This document shows positions 10,761 to 37,361 of a stretch of DNA of 64,000 nt, in pieces (positions within the stretch are counted from its first letter, which is position 1; the number at the start of each line of letters is the position of its first letter). A program made the translations under genes and the position numbers. This DNA comes from Zarea fungicola. Lineage: Eukaryota > Ascomycota > Sordariomycetes > Hypocreales > Cordycipitaceae. The DNA lies in NCBI GenBank assembly GCA_900169235.1, contig FWCC01000005.1, positions 1 through 64,000 on the forward strand. The letters run 5' to 3'. Under the pieces are notes generated by a model. It was not told the DNA's origin. It worked only from the letters and a program-made list of their open reading frames with translations, and searched no databases.

Positions 10761-12372
10761 ATGCGCGGCATTACCACAGCACTCCTCGTCCCCAGCTTGC
10801 TGGCGGCCGACGTCATGGCCAGAAGTGTTCCCGCCAACATCCAGGCTCTGTACAAGTCAATCCGCGCTCAGGGCTCCTGCAAGAACATTCTCAAGGGTGG
10901 CTTCTACAGCCAGGAGAAGGACTCAAAGAGTACGCTAATATTAGAACCCATGGCCAATTAGGCTCTTCATTCCGGCAGCACTCAAACTAACTACTTTGTT
11001 AGACTTCTGCTACTGTGGTGACCATCTGGCTTCAGATGGCATCATGTACCTCCAAGGTACTGGTGGAAACCTCGTCAACATGGACATTGACTGCGATGGT
11101 GCGCTTGGTACAGGCGATGGTAGCTGCGACTCCTCTGAGGACACCCAAGGCCAGACTACCTTTGGTGATACTGTCGCTGGCTACAACAAGGGCATCGACG
11201 ACCTCAACGCCTACATCCACTCCTTTGTTGTCCTTGGCAATGAAGGTACCAAGAAGGGCTACGTTCAGTTTGATCCCCAGTCTGTTGGCATCGAGCCTCT
11301 CTCTATTGTCGCTGTTGTCTGCGGTGATAAGATGTTCTATGGTGTTTGGGGCGACACCAACGGTGATGACGGTCCTCCTCTGATTGGCGAGGTTTCTGAC
11401 TCGCTCGGACGTGCCTGCTACGGCAGTGCCGTCAATGGCAACGAAGCCCACGACGACAACGATGTTTTGTACATTGCCTTCACCGGCAGCGGTGCCGTTC
11501 CCGGCGCTAACGGTGCCAAATGGAACGCCAAGACCTTCACTGAGTTCGAGTCGTCCCTCGGAGCTCAGGGTGACAAGCTCATCGCCAAGATTGGTGGTGG
11601 CAGCGGCGGCACCCCGACTTCCTCGGCCCCGCCCACGAGCAGCTCGACTGCTCCCCCTACCAACAGCCCTCCCCCCAGCGGTGGCAGCCTCAACCCCAAG
11701 TGCGCTCCTGGTGGCAACTTTGACCTTAGCTTCTTCAACCTCCAGCTCCCTGTTGGCGGCCCCGACATCATCAAGAGCAAGCAGCTTCAGGGCTGCAACG
11801 GCTATACCGGCGCCACCTTCTTCACCGACAAGAACACTGGTGAGATGGTTCTCCTTGCCCCTGGCAACCCTGACGAGACCGGCTGCGCCACCACCTCTGG
11901 CAGCGAGCACTGCCGTACTGAGCTCCGGGAGGTCGTCCAGAGCAGCGGTGCCAACGCTGCCTGGTCTCCCAAGGGCACCAACACATTGACTGTCAGCATG
12001 AAGGTCGTCACCTCTGACGACGGCACCCACGGCACTGCTATTGGCCAGGTCTTTGCTAGCGAAGCTAGCAAGCCCCTTGCTGAGATGTACTACAGCCCAT
12101 CTGGTGATATCGTCGTGGGCGTTAAGCCCGATGCCGACAGCAACCAGGTCGTCACCAAGCTCGCCAACGTCCCCATCGGCACCAAGTTCACATACCAGCT
12201 CAACTACTCGAACAATAAGCTCAGCATCTCCATCAACGGCAAGAGCACGTCTCTCAGCACCTTCAGCTGGAACTCGCCCGCCTGCTACTTCAAGGCCGGT
12301 AACTACAACCAGGGCAAGTCTGCGGCCAGCTCCGAGGTCCGCATCTACTCCATCGACGTTGTCCACAAATAA
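10761..12372 (+). CDS. Secreted GH75 chitosanase fused to a PL7-type alginate-lyase-like domain
   Basis: Exons 10761-10929 and 11003-12372 (73-nt GT-AG intron) encode 512 residues. A signal peptide (about 1-21) precedes a GH75 endo-chitosanase domain (about 25-250) with the family signatures NMDIDCDGA, DLNAYIHSFVVLGNE and YGVWGDTNG. The catalytic pair of the Fusarium enzyme (Asp175, Glu188) corresponds to D174 and E186. A Ser/Thr/Pro/Gly linker (about 254-286) leads to a beta-jelly-roll domain (about 294-512) with RTELRE (361-366) and YFKAGNYNQ (485-493), hallmarks of PL7/alginate_lyase_2. The usual Q-I/V-H motif reads QVF (405-407), so the catalytic His is replaced by Phe. The chitosanase should cleave chitosan outside the cell; the second domain may bind or cleave a uronate polymer, or may only bind. 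PL20 glucuronan lyase is a related alternative for this half. Confidence 0.9.
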
Positions 12373-26050: not shown

Positions 26051-29000
26051 TCAGAAACTACCAAACTCCATGAATATCATCTGTGAAGACTCAAGCGCCA
26101 TAGTTATGGCCGACGAATATCCCCTAACTTCCTTGGGACGATACTGTGGTGGCACCCATAGCACAGGAGTGTCCCCTCGCATCACCCAGCTGGACTGGAA
26201 ATCATAATCGTAGCGCAGGCCAACACATCTCAATGACTCCGCTCCATCCTCGACCTTTCTATTTGAGTATGCCGGTTCAAGTTGATACTTTGCTCCACCC
26301 TGCTCAATTTCCATCGTTGATGGCCGATATTCGAAGTGGCCGGGTAGGTCGTCCTCGAGCCGGTACAGCCGCCTGTGCGAGGCTACATCCCAGATTGCGC
26401 AGCCGTCTATCGCCAGGTGGGCAATAATTTGGGTTCCATCACTCGAAAACTGCGCCGCAGAGACCTCTGCGTCGAAATCGTGAATTATTTTTCCAGTCTT
26501 TGCGTCACAAAGCTTGAGGGTTGGAGACCAAGTGACCAACAGTGACTTGTCAGGCGACAAGCTGCTGTTAACTTGCCCCTTTGTCGGCAGGCTTGGAACA
26601 CTAGCTCTTATTTCTGCCAATCGGAGAGATACAATTTCATCCAGGAGAGTACCGCCGGCAGGGTCCTCGGCTGGCGCAGCTGTCTCCTTGGCATTGCGCA
26701 GGCATGTCAGCGACGGCGCATCCCACGTCTGCATGACCTGACGGCTGTACCCTCGCACGTAGAGCTTGTCGTCCCTCGAAAACTCAATCATGGCAAAACT
26801 GTTGCTGGACGGAACCGCCTGGCGCGTTGCCGTCTCGGTAGACCAGATCATGATGCAACTCTCCCCGGCTGTATTCGGGGGCGCGGCGAACCCAGCCGGC
26901 GAAAAGTCCGAGCTGTCCATTGACGCGGCGAAGCGTCCGCTGGGAGAAAAAGCAAACTCCTGCAAGCCCCGCGACTCAGATTGAGTGGCGAGGCTCTGCG
27001 GGTCGGAAATGTCCCATACCCGCATCGGCTGGCGGCGCTTGGCCGAGAGGAGACGGCCTCCGTCGTTGGATATCTCGACTGTGTAGCTGTCGTTGACGCC
27101 AAATTGAAGAATCTTGACTTCCTCGCCGCTTTTGACGTCGCGTACGATGAGCGGGCCCCATATGGACTTTGCGTACAGGACTTTACTGCAGTCTTGGTTC
27201 CATCCAAACTGGTTAAATTTTGCGATGTTGCCGGTTCCGAACGAGACTGCTCGGAGACCAGAGGTCTTTGTGCCTTGGCAAAATTCCTCTACAAAGGAAC
27301 GGTTCTGAGCATCGAAGACGAGACAAGACATCGGTCGTCCCTTCATGACAAAGTCAAGCGACAGGACAGCAGGATGGTCTTGCAGCGTAGCTACGCAGTG
27401 CCCTGTTGAAGTACCATAGATGCGGATGGCCTTGTCCGTCGCCGCGAGCGCCACCAGGGTCTCATCCGCGGAGAATACGCCGCCAACAAAGCTGGCCTCT
27501 GTTATTGAGATCGCGATATTATCCGAATTGCTTTGCACAATGCAGCAACTTTCCTCAGCTTCCAATGCTGCATCTCCCTCTGGCTCACCGGTGTGGGGCT
27601 CATCCTCTTCCTCCGGCCCATTCTCAACACATATGTCATTGTCGCCATAATGATCAATCTCTTCGAGGACGTCTGTCGTTGACATGATATACTTTCCCAT
27701 CGAGGAAATGCAGAGAAAACGCGCGGCTCCAAAGATGGGAAACTGCTTCAACTTCTTTCCTGACGCAACATCGTACGTCACAACCGCACCGTCTCTGAAG
27801 ACACCACAGATACAAGTGTTGTTGTCAAAAAACTGAACTTTCGTGAAGCCAATTTCCTGTGTCTCGGTCGAAATTGAGCTCAGCAGCACGCCGGTGTCAA
27901 CTTCCCAAATACTCACGCACCGGCGCCAGGGGGAGCTGCATGCGCAGAGCCGGCCATCGGGAGAAATGGCCGTTTCCTGCGCGCTGTATGAATCTTCAAA
28001 GGTCATCACACACTTTCCCCATTCTTTATCGATGTTTCCTCGCAGCGTAATGTTGTCGGGTAAAGGCGTCGTGTTGCGAAAAACAGCCTGGACCCAGCTT
28101 TCCAGCGGACAGAACAAGCGACCCGAAACATAGACTTGCAATGGCGCATCAGGAATACCGGCGAGGAAGAAGGCTACAAACTTGGCGACATCGTAGAAAA
28201 TAGGAGACGTGTTTCCAAGCTTCACCTGTAGAATTAGTCTCTCGGGGATCGATCTACTGCAGACTGACTTGTTTACATACCTGTATCGAACTGCATTTTT
28301 GGAGAACAATGCAATTCTCCGGAAGGCATCGTAGAACACTAAGCGCTTCAATCCATGTAAGAAAATGGTTGGAAAAGAAGCCAATAACTGACTGGGGCAG
28401 CGTGAGATCAATGTCCTTGCTCAAGGCGACGCGATCGTAAAAGTGACGCAGAAAGTACCTGCAAGAGTATTCCACATCCAGGAGTGGATCGTTTTTAGGT
28501 CGGTTAATATCGTGAACTTTAGTCCCAAAGCTTTCCAGACTGTAAATATTGACCCTCAAGACATGTCGCAGGGCAGCGATGGACATTTTATACAGCTGCT
28601 CGTGTTGCGCTGCCAGACTCGTCGAAAGCAGGCCCGAAAAGTCATCAAGCAAAAAGTCCTTGGCTGACTGATGAACAAAGTACACAGATCCCTTCTGCAA
28701 TGTCAAAAACGAGCCGCACGACTGAATGACCTCCTCCGTTTCGTCTTCTGCCAGCTCGGCAAAGCCTGTGGAGAGGCGACGAAGCTCAGCTACCCGAACC
28801 GGGCGGTACACGGTTGACATGATGGCTAGGATCGCTTTGAAGAGCTGTGCGTCAAACGAGTCATTAATCTGCTCCATCATGCGGGTGTACAGTTCGGGGA
28901 GCCCACGAGGTAATCCGGCGAGGATCCGGTGCGTGTGTCGCTTTGCCACCTTTGGTGCAGACAGCTCTTTGCACACGAGCGCCACCCAGAGAAACGTGTC

Positions 29001-29876
29001 GTTGGAGTTTGTAGTGAGATGATTCTTGACTTCCACTGCCAGTTCATTATCGTACTTTTTTGCCGCTTGCAATTTGCAAACCTGGTGGTTAATGTATACG
29101 CCGATGGCGTCGGAAACCTGCTGCTGGTTGAGCTCTAGGTTGATTTGGTAAAGACTCTCGTTCAGCTGCAGGTCTTGCTGAATATCCGGCCAGTTGCGAC
29201 TCGAAACAAGCCACTTGCAGCCAGTAGCCTCGGAGCATCCTGCCAGAAACGACGTCAAGTCCTGCAGGCCCTCCAGGCACTCGTCCAAGCCGTCAATCAC
29301 CAACACCATGTTCTGCGCCAAGGGGTCTTTCAGTATGACTCGCAAGGTGTTTCGCAGTGCTATCCACGCATTGTGGTCCTCAAATACCTCTTTGTCGGCA
29401 TTCTTGTATGTGTTTTTGACATGCTTCCGGAGCGATGGCTCCTTCATGACCAGGAGGTAAATGAGACCACGAAGGACAGAGGTTGCGCTTCGGAGGGCCT
29501 TGTGCGCGGCCTGGCAGAAGAAATAGCTGACGATTAGAGACTGATTCTTAGACAGCTCGTCGATGATGCCACAAAGCAGCATGGTCTTGCCCTTCCCGGC
29601 ATCCCCCCTCACCCACAGTACTGGATGGGTTGTTTCGGCCCGCCATTGGAGGAACTCTTGATTGGCAAGAACCCAGGAATAAGCATCGTGCAGGATGCCG
29701 CCCCCGGCTGCTTCTATTCGGTCCTTGTCATCTCTCGGATCGGTCGTTCGCAAAGCAGCCAGCAGATCTGCTGACGCCGTGTGACTATGGAAATGGGTAT
29801 GATTGCCAACATAAAGCTGACCTTGCTCACTAACATGAGCAGTTTCCACGACGTTCATGGTTTTTGCGTCACCCAT
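26051..29876 (-). CDS. NACHT-WD40 NLR with N-terminal amyloid motif (NWD2-like)
   Basis: Exons 29876-28281 and 28225-26051 (55-nt GT-AG intron, phase 0) give 1256 residues. Residues 8-25 (NVVETAHVSEQGQLYVGN) form a HET-s-type amyloid motif, R0. A NACHT STAND ATPase domain follows: P-loop GDAGKGKTML (91-100), Walker B LVIDGLDEC (192-200) and the fungal NWD signature YFVHQSAKDFLL (399-410). From about 600 to the end are roughly nine degenerate WD40 blades (RVWDIS, IMIWST and AIWDVA type cores). In this family ligand binding by the repeats triggers nucleotide-dependent oligomerisation, and R0 templates amyloid folding of a HeLo effector. The effector gene lies head to head 501 bases away. The start is the first ATG in frame; the frame stays open upstream to 29948 without ATG, so a leader exon is possible. 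Motifs are seen directly; signalling is inferred from HET-S/NWD2. Confidence 0.88.
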
Positions 29877-30377
29877 GTATCTTTTGAGGCAACATTCTAC
29901 TGTTTCAAAGCAAGGAAAAGCAAGTGAACCCGATTGCAACGCTGCCAACGAATTGGAAGCCTTGCGCGGGGCTTACTAACACCTCGCGCTGCCTAATTTC
30001 ACCCCAAAATGCCGGCGGTATTATGTTAATATCTGTATATTCCAAAACACATCAACCCATTACGAGACAGCTGCTAGCTCTTCCGCTTTCTTAAACCCAT
30101 TTACCATGGATCTTTCAACAAACCAATTGCAGCACCACTTCGTGGGAGGCGGTCCGCCCCCTTCCAGCACGAAGCCACTACCGCACGAAGTAACCAGGCG
30201 GGCTGTAAAATATCAAAAAACAGGATGTAACAGCCTAACAGTAACTAGTTGCACCTTTTGAGGTTGACTCAGCGCATGCAGCCCACTAACAAGCTGGCTA
30301 TAGCACAGCCCCTCGGGTTGCTTTTCTGAAGCAAACATATGCCCTGCGTCAAGCCTCGATGCTGATTGTACACCGCC
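29877..30377. promoter_or_regulatory. Shared divergent promoter of the NLR and HeLo genes
   Basis: 501 bases between two head-to-head ATGs. No further gene fits inside. A shared promoter would allow joint expression of receptor and effector, which is inferred from arrangement only. Confidence 0.55.
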
Positions 30378-31247
30378 ATGGCTGAGGTATTCGGCATCGT
30401 GTCTGGCGCCCTGTCAGTAGCCAGCCTGTTCAACAACTGCGTCGACTGCTTCGAGTACATCCAGCTCGGCCGCCATTTCGGCTCCGACTTTGAGCGCTAC
30501 CAGCTCCAGCTCGATGTCAGCCGGGTGCGCCTGTCGCGATGGGGCGCTGCCGTCCGCGTCAACCAGCAAGACCGCTTCGACGAGGCCAGCCCCGACCCCG
30601 AGGTAGCGCTGGCGCGGGACATTCTCGAGGACATTAGGGACATGTTCCAGAACCTGCACCAGAAATCATCAAAGTACCGCTCCAGGGCGGCGCTGGAAGC
30701 TCCGGCCGTGCAGGCTGTTGCCGACCCGGAGACCATGAGCGCCGGCGCCCGACGACTGCACGGCAGGCTAATGGCAATCGCGCGAAGCAGGCAGAAGACG
30801 ACGTCCCTGTCGAAGAAAGTTAGCTGGGCCATCTACGACCAGAGGCACTTTGGCAACATGGTAAGGGAACTTGCAGGCCACATTAACGCGCTGGAGAAGC
30901 TGTTTCCCGTGGGGCCGGTGGCGAAGCAGCTGGCGCAGGTCGAGGTGGACGAGGTGAATGAGGAGCCGGAATTAGAGGCACTCCGCGCGGCGTCGACGGA
31001 AATAGACGGCGTTCTCGCCAGGGCTGCCGAGGAGAAGCACAATCGACTGTTTGTAAGGCACGTAGCGGAAAACATAGAGGTCGAGGGGCACGGTAAGACA
31101 CACTTTGGATCAAATTGGAGGAGACGGGACGCCCCATTCGGAGTTTTTGGGACGCATACCAACACTCTCAAGATCAGAGGCGCTGCGACGGTCCAGGTTG
31201 GATTTAACTTTGAGGACCCGACTCCGAGCACTACAGAGGGAGAATAA
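30378..31247 (+). CDS. HeLo-domain protein with two amyloid repeats (HET-S-like)
   Basis: Single exon of 289 residues, the same length as Podospora HET-S/HET-s. Residues 1 to about 222 are a HeLo domain (opening MAEVFGIVSGALSVASLFNN) that follows the HET-s protein along its length. The C-terminus holds two pseudo-repeats of the amyloid motif: R1 at about 228-247 (core EGHGKTHFGSNW) and R2 at about 259-278 (core RGAATVQVGFNF), G244 and G275 being equivalent. Their spacing of 31 residues is shorter than the 36 of HET-s. Position 33 is His, the residue that marks the active, membrane-targeting HET-S form rather than the prion HET-s form (Pro33). In the family, amyloid folding of the tail refolds the HeLo domain into a membrane-permeabilising state causing cell death in incompatibility. 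The neighbouring NLR carries the matching motif. Fold and role come from the family; the sequence match is direct. Confidence 0.93.
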   Translation: MAEVFGIVSGALSVASLFNNCVDCFEYIQLGRHFGSDFERYQLQLDVSRVRLSRWGAAVRVNQQDRFDEASPDPEVALARDILEDIRDMFQNLHQKSSKYRSRAALEAPAVQAVADPETMSAGARRLHGRLMAIARSRQKTTSLSKKVSWAIYDQRHFGNMVRELAGHINALEKLFPVGPVAKQLAQVEVDEVNEEPELEALRAASTEIDGVLARAAEEKHNRLFVRHVAENIEVEGHGKTHFGSNWRRRDAPFGVFGTHTNTLKIRGAATVQVGFNFEDPTPSTTEGE

Positions 31248-31731: not shown

Positions 31732-31802
31732 NNNNNNNNNNNNNNNNNNNNNNNNNNNNNNNNNNNNNNNNNNNNNNNNNNNNNNNNNNNNNNNNNNNNN
31801 NN
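31732..31802. other. Assembly gap (71 N)
   Basis: Run of undetermined bases, followed by a homopolymer of 17 A. True size unknown. Confidence 0.98.
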
Positions 31803-34815: not shown

Positions 34816-35398
34816 CTCGGTTCGCACCCAAGGCTTGTGCCATGAGAGAAAACAGGCAACGCGCCAGTGACCGTTGCTTGCGGCCTTCTGGAATGGCTGC
34901 AGAGGAAGACATGAGAAAATGGACAGGAAATAATGCCAGGTGAGGAGTAAAATCGGCGTGAGATATTAATACAAGTCGCAGTCTTCCCGTCGTCCCTTGT
35001 TCCATGTCGGCCGAGCCGCTTCTCTGGTGCTTCCCGTATTCTTTTGTGCCTAACCGCGGTAATTCTTCCAAGTCTACCATTTTTATTCTTATTTATTTTC
35101 ATTTATTTTTGCCAATTTTATTCTGTCAAATCTGATTAATTGGCCAGGTTGATTAAATCCGACTTTAAAAGCCCATCTCGTACAGCTCGTCTTCTTTGAA
35201 GTGGGGTGTCGACTAACTTACTTTGATCCCGCCAATTATCTCAGCCTCGTTCCCTCGTAACCTCGCCGTTGAATCATCGCAATGAGCTACAGAAAATTCA
35301 TTTCACGTCGTCCTTTTTATTTAATTTTCATTGATTTTTAGCGATTAGTATCTAAAATTCAGTCAGCGGCCTAATTGGCTACCCAGCCTCGTCTGAAA
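34816..35398. other. Promoter region of the HET-ZZ gene
   Basis: AT-rich with several TTTATTTT tracts near 35090-35100 and 35320-35340. A short minus-strand ATG frame starts at 35080 but runs into the array. No separate gene is claimed. Confidence 0.5.
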
Positions 35399-37361
35399 AT
35401 GCATCTCGTCAACGTCAAGACCATGAAGCTCGAGTCCTTTGCGGAGAGCGACACGCCTAAATACGCCATCCTCTCGCACCGCTGGCAAGACGGCGAGGTA
35501 CTCTTCCAGGACATGCAGCCCGGCCATGACGCGACACCAAAGGCAGGATACGCCAAGCTGGCTGCCTTTTGCGCCAAGGCGGCCGCCGCAGGCTACGGCT
35601 ACGCGTGGTGCGACACCTGCTGCATCGATAAGAGCAGCAGCGCCGAGCTCAGCGAGTCCATCAACTCCATGTTCAAGTGGTACCGGGACGCGGGTGTCTG
35701 CTTTGCATACCTGTATGACGTGGAGGCCTCCGAGGTGCACGACGACGACTCAGAGTCCCTCCGCAGCGAGTGGTTTACGCGCGGTTGGTGCCTCCAGGAG
35801 CTCGTGGCCCCGCGGGAGGTTATCTTCTTCAACGCCCGCTGGGAGCCGCTGGGCAGCCGGGGCACGCTGAGTCGCCTGATCCACGAGATTACCGGCATCG
35901 ACGCGGATGTGCCCGAGGGGGCCAGCCTGAGCCGGTTCAGCGTCGCGCAGCGCATGGCGTGGGCGGCGGACCGCAAGACGACGCGCGGCGAGGACGTGGC
36001 GTACAGCCTGCTGGGCATCTTTGGGGTCAACATGCCGCTGCTGTACGGCGAGGGCGGGGAGCGCGCGTTTCGGCGGCTGCAGGAGGAGATTATCCGGCAG
36101 AGCCCGGACCAGTCGATTCTGGTGCACTCGCACACAGGCCTGTTTGCGCGGTCGCCAGCCGACTTTCGCGACTCGGCGCGCATTGTATGCACGGGGGCGC
36201 CGCTGATCGGGGAGCCGTACAACCTCACCAACGCGGGGCTGTCGGTGTCGCTGCTCCTATTCCCGTGGGCCTACGAGACGTACCTGGCGCTGTTGGACTG
36301 CCACGAGGATGGGTGCAGCGATTATGTAGGCATCTTTGTGCAGCTTCGACGGCGCGGGTCGAGCTGGTTCAAGACGGACCATGCGATGCGAGTCAGCGTG
36401 GACGGGGCACTGTGGCTGAAGAAGCCGCGGATTGACGGGCTCCCGAGAAGCGTGTGCAAACTGTATATTGAGAGCCTCGTGGGACTTGCTGCCTTGCTAC
36501 CGCCGCAGCGATATGGATTCTGGGTGCGGCGGTTTGAGCGAGTATGGAGCTCCAAGCAAGAACAAATGGACGAGACAGAGGCAGGCAGCGAGGAGCGGAC
36601 ATGGGCGGTGTCGGCCAACCAATGGAATGACAAGGAGCGGTTCGTTTTGCTGCCGAACGGCAGGCATGGGACGGCGGGCATCGTGGCCCGTCAATCAGGC
36701 GACGGCCACCCAATGCTGCTGCGTCTGGGGTTTTCGTTTGACTTTCGGCCCATTCTGGAACTGGGCGGTGAGGATTACACCATGTTTGACAGCAAGCCGG
36801 GTGGGATTGTGGTGGACATCAAGGGGCCTAACTCGTTTCCCATCAACGAAAGGCTAACGCGTAAGGAGCAGATGAAGGATAAGGGCCCATTTAGCAAGGA
36901 GTACGTGCTGTCGAGCACGCAGTGGATGAAGGACAACAACAATGGATGGGGCAAGACGCCAGCAACGGTGCTACTGGAGTGCACGAGCCGAGATGCGCCG
37001 CTGCATTCAGAGGGCAGGCGGGGGCTGGCTGGCGGGTATGAGGTGTTTTGCAGGAAGACGCTTGTTGATGGCGCGGAGATGTGGGTGGTTGATGTTGAGT
37101 GGTGGCGATATTCTCCAGATCGGAATGCTGGGGAGTCGAGAGGGGCGCTTTGTGATTGTTGTGAAAGGGTATGTGTGTTTTCTTTTATCCTGCTTTGCCT
37201 TTTGATTCCTTTCTGACATTGTTTTACTGACTTATCGAGTGCAGGACATACATGGCGAGCGGTACAAATGTCAAGAGTGCGCGGATTTTGATTTGTGCAG
37301 GTTTTGCATTGGCGACAAGGATAGAATTCATAATGCCGATCATGATTTTGAATCTATTTAG
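35399..37361 (+). CDS. HET-domain protein with C-terminal ZZ zinc finger
   Basis: Exons 35399-37168 and 37245-37361 (76-nt GT-AG intron) give 628 residues. The HET domain (about 18-160) shows its three blocks: YAILSHRW near 21-28, GYAWCDTCCIDKSSSAELSE about 66-85, and WFTRGWCLQELVAP about 124-137. Then follows MPLLYGEGGERAFRRLQEEI, the usual distal element of the HET-E/HET-R-like group. The last 45 residues, completed by exon 2, form a ZZ-type zinc finger (CDCCERDIHGERYKCQECAD, then DFDLCRFC and the closing His pair H-N-A-D-H). HET domains trigger vegetative incompatibility cell death; ZZ fingers bind proteins or ligands. There is no NACHT or repeat domain, so how it is activated is unknown. 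The start is the first ATG of a frame open a little further upstream. It neighbours the HET-S/NWD2 pair. Confidence 0.9.

Follow-up and report, generated by a model that had tools for sequence, protein, structure and literature searches.

The closest described counterpart of the locus reported here is the NWD2/HET-S system of Podospora anserina, in which a HeLo-domain effector with two C-terminal repeats and a NACHT-WD40 receptor with one N-terminal repeat are encoded by divergent neighbours separated by about 0.5-0.6 kb, the motif and the NACHT domain both lying in the first exon of the receptor gene, as described in PMC4344463. Such het-S/nwd2 pairs are reported from several fungi, the orientation being divergent or co-directional depending on the species (PMC3321046). 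The PP (HELLP/SBP) and sigma (SESA/SESB) systems likewise pass a motif from a NOD-like receptor (NLR) to an adjacent effector, and differ by description in motif signatures and effectors (PMC5485727, PMC3321046). Here we analysed a stretch of 64,000 nucleotides of Zarea fungicola DNA (contig FWCC01000005.1; hereafter the window), in which positions 26,051 to 31,247 encode a NACHT-WD40 receptor and a HeLo-domain effector. The genes, domains, motif positions, layout and conservation of this pair were established directly, and the locus probably represents a HET-S/NWD2-type cell-death pair working by amyloid templating of the HeLo effector, seeded by a receptor motif termed r0. Pairs of this kind are known, and the effector tail is a variant.

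The two genes diverge head to head, and their positions, including the 501 bp between the ATGs, agree with those given in the original prediction. The gene models and domains are as follows:

26051..28225, minus strand: receptor (NLR) exon 2, residues 533-1256 plus stop, a degenerate WD40/beta-propeller region (open frame, Pfam propeller models)
28226..28280, minus strand: predicted 55-bp intron of the receptor gene, GTATGT..CTACAG, bridging two long frames
28281..29876, minus strand: receptor exon 1, residues 1-532, with the N-terminal motif and the NACHT domain (open frame, GT donor at 28280, Pfam)
29196..29681, minus strand: NPHP3_N nucleotide-binding domain, receptor residues 66-227
29877..30377, no strand: intergenic region between both ATGs, 501 bp
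30378..31247, plus strand: HeLo-domain effector gene, 289 amino acids, no intron
30393..30983, plus strand: HeLo domain (PF14479), effector residues 6-202, 177.3-178.3 bits, E 4.6e-52
30474..30476, plus strand: codon of effector His33, the toxic HET-S residue, placed by alignment with 2wvo/2wvn

The effector frame runs from the ATG at 30378 to a stop ending at 31247. The receptor starts at the ATG at 29876 and totals 1,256 amino acids over two exons, joined at a predicted splice that uses the single GTATGT/CTACAG combination found between its two long frames. Exon 1 matched NPHP3_N (PF24883, E 1.9e-34, 119.7 bits) and NACHT (PF05729, E 9.6e-12, 45.5 bits) in Pfam, and the P-loop and Walker B that had been read from the sequence are both intact (Walker A GDAGKGKT, residues 91-98; VLVIDGLDE, residues 191-199). 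Exon 2 matched many beta-propeller models, nearly all under their curated cut-offs (ANAPC4_WD40, PF12894, lies above and plain WD40, PF00400, below), and the repeats are therefore degenerate.

The effector likewise contains the intact HeLo domain that had been claimed, and the profile search for HeLo and NACHT returned both families. In its aligned part, this domain is 43-45% identical to the HET-s/HET-S crystal structures (2wvo/2wvn). Among the effector homologues listed (the best 120 of 210 at E up to 1e-3), the closest is P0002, with 57% identity over 97%, followed by HET-S relatives from many ascomycetes at about 40-47%. A 49-row HeLo tree clusters the window effector with P0002 at a support of 99/99, and the tail is conserved between these two proteins to the same degree as the HeLo domain. 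The mark of the toxic HET-S type, His at position 33, is present in the effector and in 47 of 61 aligned HeLo homologues. At position 23 the effector shares Asp with HET-s and with 38 of the 61, whereas Podospora HET-S has Ala. According to PMC3531502, H33P makes HET-S HET-s-like, and the reverse change requires D23A together with P33H; D23 is therefore a point of unlikeness to Podospora HET-S.

HET-s-type motifs were located with profiles built on an alignment of the 120 effector homologues listed (r1 from 116 and r2 from 112 sequences, the window protein and P0002 being left out). With the r1, r2 and joint profiles, scans of the head of the receptor (residues 1-80) and of the tail of the effector located a single motif in the former and two in the latter:

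29799..29855, minus strand: r0, HET-s-type motif on the receptor, residues 8-26, best place for all three profiles (score 11.8)
31059..31115, plus strand: r1, first effector repeat, residues 228-246, where the r1 profile scores best, strands predicted at 228-237 and 240-243
31152..31208, plus strand: r2, second effector repeat, residues 259-277, best place of the r2 and joint profiles, predicted strands 259-268 and 271-274
31209..31247, plus strand: C-terminal segment following r2, lacking the GG/aromatic end of most listed homologues

Shuffled sequences seldom equalled the observed scores: among 2000 each, 6 (r1), 10 (r2) and 17 (joint profile) effector tails did so, and 4, 21 and 8 receptor heads, respectively. 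All three motifs carry Gly at position 19, the five core positions are hydrophobic in r0 (5/5) and largely so in r1 and r2 (4/5 each), and both effector repeats are hydrophobic at positions 8, 10 and 18. In the AlphaFold2 model, the predicted strands coincide with both repeats. The window receptor ranks first by motif score among 76 sequences of the same genome with a nucleotide-binding open reading frame (the window gene being counted twice), the remaining 74 having a mean of -3.8, a standard deviation of 4.4 and a top score of 9.1.

A second divergent HET-S-like/NLR pair was identified elsewhere in the genome, which was searched over 43.1 Mb in 456 contigs, the window being part of contig C280. 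This pair (C169:155983-160459; L117, L118) consists of a HeLo effector on the plus strand (ATG 159620), with a PF11558 match of 44.6 bits, and an NB-ARC receptor on the minus strand, from an inferred ATG at 159314 down to 155983; the inferred ATGs are 305 bp apart. Its receptor motif, located in a short upstream frame (an inferred first exon with a predicted splice), scores 32.1. Both pairs are divergent, with one motif on the receptor and two repeats on the effector; the C169 pair differs in carrying PF11558, in its motif scores (22.0-32.1), in having NB-ARC instead of NACHT, and in the placement of the receptor motif in a short first exon. The C169 pair is thus an internal positive control, the method recovering a canonical case in the same genome. 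Other arrangements of these domains were also observed. At C226:15423-16739, a single frame of 1,039 residues matches both HeLo and NPHP3_N, fusing effector and receptor in its design, and at C115:99315-102026 (L063, L007) about 1.7 kb separates a HeLo-type gene from an NPHP3_N match on the opposite strand; HET-s-type repeats were not found at the latter locus, by eye or by profile.

Several observations weigh against the proposed templating, the first of them concerning motif strength. Core position 16 of r1 and core position 5 of r2 are Thr, and the r1/r2 charge complementarity (positions 9 and 11) is merely the family average (2 against a mean of 1.8). Among the receptor homologues listed (the best 120 of 3,720 matches), 37 have a P-loop within 150 residues of the start, and 9 of these outscore the window r0. 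Eight of the higher-scoring receptors bear a motif that is clear by eye (P0171, P0163, P0143, P0221, P0138, P0182, P0121 and P0122; 15.5-32.0), and the window motif scores below even the doubtful one of the homologous receptor P0231 (13.6). In a wide scan of 116 loci translated in six frames (487,020 positions), scores of 11.0 or more occurred at seven places: the C169 pair (32.1, 30.5, 22.0), the unrelated L034 (12.0) and the window pair (11.8, 11.4, 11.0). The window motifs are therefore about level with the best unrelated place, and their scores by themselves would not single them out in a blind scan of the genome. Chance is unlikely because of where they lie, one at the start of the receptor and a tandem pair at the C-terminus of the neighbouring HET-S-like effector. 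The effector tail folded alone gives strands at a mean predicted local distance difference test score (pLDDT) of 53.9, and thus the solenoid of the main model leans on homologues.

A further such observation is that r0 is no closer to the repeats of its own effector than to those of others. Over 18 positions, r0 is identical to its own r1 and r2 at 5 and 3 positions, and to the C169 r1 and r2 at 6 and 4; the corresponding BLOSUM62 sums are 25 and 5 against 30 and 13, and the motif of another receptor, P0171, reaches 37 against the window r1. The matching short motifs of the original prediction therefore stand at the level of the HET-s-type pattern, given the shuffle counts, and not letter by letter. 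In 82 of the 95 pairs of PMC4518210, r0 and the adjacent r1/r2 belong to one motif group, a common grouping that is not evident for the window pair, given these scores. At positions 10 (V) and 14 (G), r1 has letters that are unusual in the family (11/116 and 0/116 homologues) and that r0 shares, while the two differ at positions 3, 16, 18 and 20, where r0 holds the more usual N3 and N20. The higher sums against C169 would fit a cross-wired network, in which the window r0 also or mainly activates the canonical C169 effector and both receptors act on the window effector. We consider this improbable: the differences are small for 18-residue motifs, and C169 has its own adjacent NB-ARC receptor, whose strongly scoring motif fits the C169 repeats (27 and 41) over those of the window (24 and 18).

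The tail of the effector departs most from the canonical HET-s prion domain. PF11558 is absent from the window effector in a protein search at E up to 1, and its sole match in the genome search is at C169; it is carried by 114 of the 120 listed effector homologues, the others being the window protein, P0002 and four more. The proposed check with a HET-s amyloid-motif profile thus failed for the Pfam model, whereas the homologue-built profiles located r0, r1 and r2. Position 3 is H in r1 and T in r2, and position 20 is S in r1 and F in r2, which precludes both asparagine ladders; at least one ladder is kept by 106 of the 111 homologues with both repeats. Both ladders are also lost in P0095, where r2 is seemingly misaligned, and in P0009, P0012, P0015 and P0019, which have PF11558 nonetheless; the ladder mark is therefore usual rather than strict, and its loss is not unique to the window. 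The repeats of the latter four, at least partly from Fusarium oxysporum, have I/S at position 3 and N/H at position 20. Furthermore, an F or W past the first residue that follows r2 is present in 98 of 114 proteins and missing from the window protein, P0002 and 14 others. For Podospora HET-s, PMC4055769 describes the N226A N243A double mutant as inactive, and F286A and W287A as being among the few strong single mutants.

These losses of both ladders, the aromatic end and the PF11558 match, together with an r0 that is not nearer to its neighbour and motif scores close to chance level in the wide scan, are what would be expected of two unlinked neighbouring pathways, the effector tail having drifted from the amyloid motif to be otherwise regulated and the receptor signalling to a different partner. 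Such a separation appears unlikely, since the tail is as well conserved with P0002 as the HeLo domain, the profiles place all three motifs where expected, r0 ranks first among the frames scored in the genome, and the adjacency of such pairs recurs (PMC3321046, PMC4518210). From its sequence, the tail would be best explained as a divergent subclass of HET-s-related amyloid motifs (HRAMs), distinct from the canonical C169 pair, and therefore the two pairs may be separate signalling channels. The window motifs resemble HRAM1-5 in G19, in the hydrophobic positions of r1 and r2, and in opposite r1/r2 charges at two positions. By description, r1 shares H3 with HRAM3, r2 having T3, and the Q at 18 or 16 that marks HRAM4 and HRAM5 in PMC4518210 is absent at both positions. 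We suggest only tentatively, the HRAM classes being compared by description, that the tail might represent an unrecorded subclass forming a solenoid without asparagine ladders or an aromatic end, and a second channel insulated from the canonical HET-S pair. Coexistence of motif classes is described for 17 species of one survey (PMC4518210).

The last point against the HET-S/NWD2-type interpretation is that the NLR lies on a long branch of the receptor tree, outside any group of motif-bearing receptors. A long receptor branch and a divergent tail could also indicate a degenerate relic, decaying after loss of function. This is highly improbable, as the frames are open across 289 and 1,256 residues, both Walker motifs, H33 and the G19 of r0, r1 and r2 are intact, and the tail is conserved with P0002. 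The complete receptor-effector signalling unit first proposed for this locus is supported by the two protein families, their divergent adjacency, the one plus two motif copies and the C169 control, and not by any closer match of r0 to its own r1 and r2; on this analysis, it is the best inference rather than a demonstrated fact.

In the proposed HET-S/NWD2-type mechanism, by analogy with Podospora, the propeller region of the receptor would sense a ligand, and the receptor would oligomerise through its NACHT domain. The assembled receptors would juxtapose copies of the N-terminal 19-residue motif, which could form a beta-solenoid amyloid seed, and this r0 seed would template r1 and r2, the observed C-terminal repeats of the HeLo protein. 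As proposed for HET-S, refolding of the effector would free its N-terminal HeLo membrane segment, which would puncture the cell's own membrane.

Other features were observed around the pair. A run of N alongside a poly-A stretch lies at 31732-31802, about 0.5 kb past the HeLo gene, and a HET-domain heterokaryon-incompatibility protein (PF06985, 40.7 bits) is encoded at 35375-37216, about 4 kb downstream of that gene. A further NPHP3_N NLR is found on the same contig outside the window (C280:80192-80719). At 10945-12372, a single open frame combines two enzyme domains, a GH75 chitosanase (224.9 bits) and an alginate lyase (144.7 bits).

Amyloid signalling from an NLR to a HeLo protein is already an established principle, and the pair itself therefore adds one case. 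The tail could provide a natural test of the motif's tolerance to change: features marked as needed by mutagenesis of Podospora HET-s, namely one asparagine ladder and the aromatic end, are missing from a tail that is conserved with P0002. The canonical C169 pair in the same genome provides a ready control for insulation between channels.
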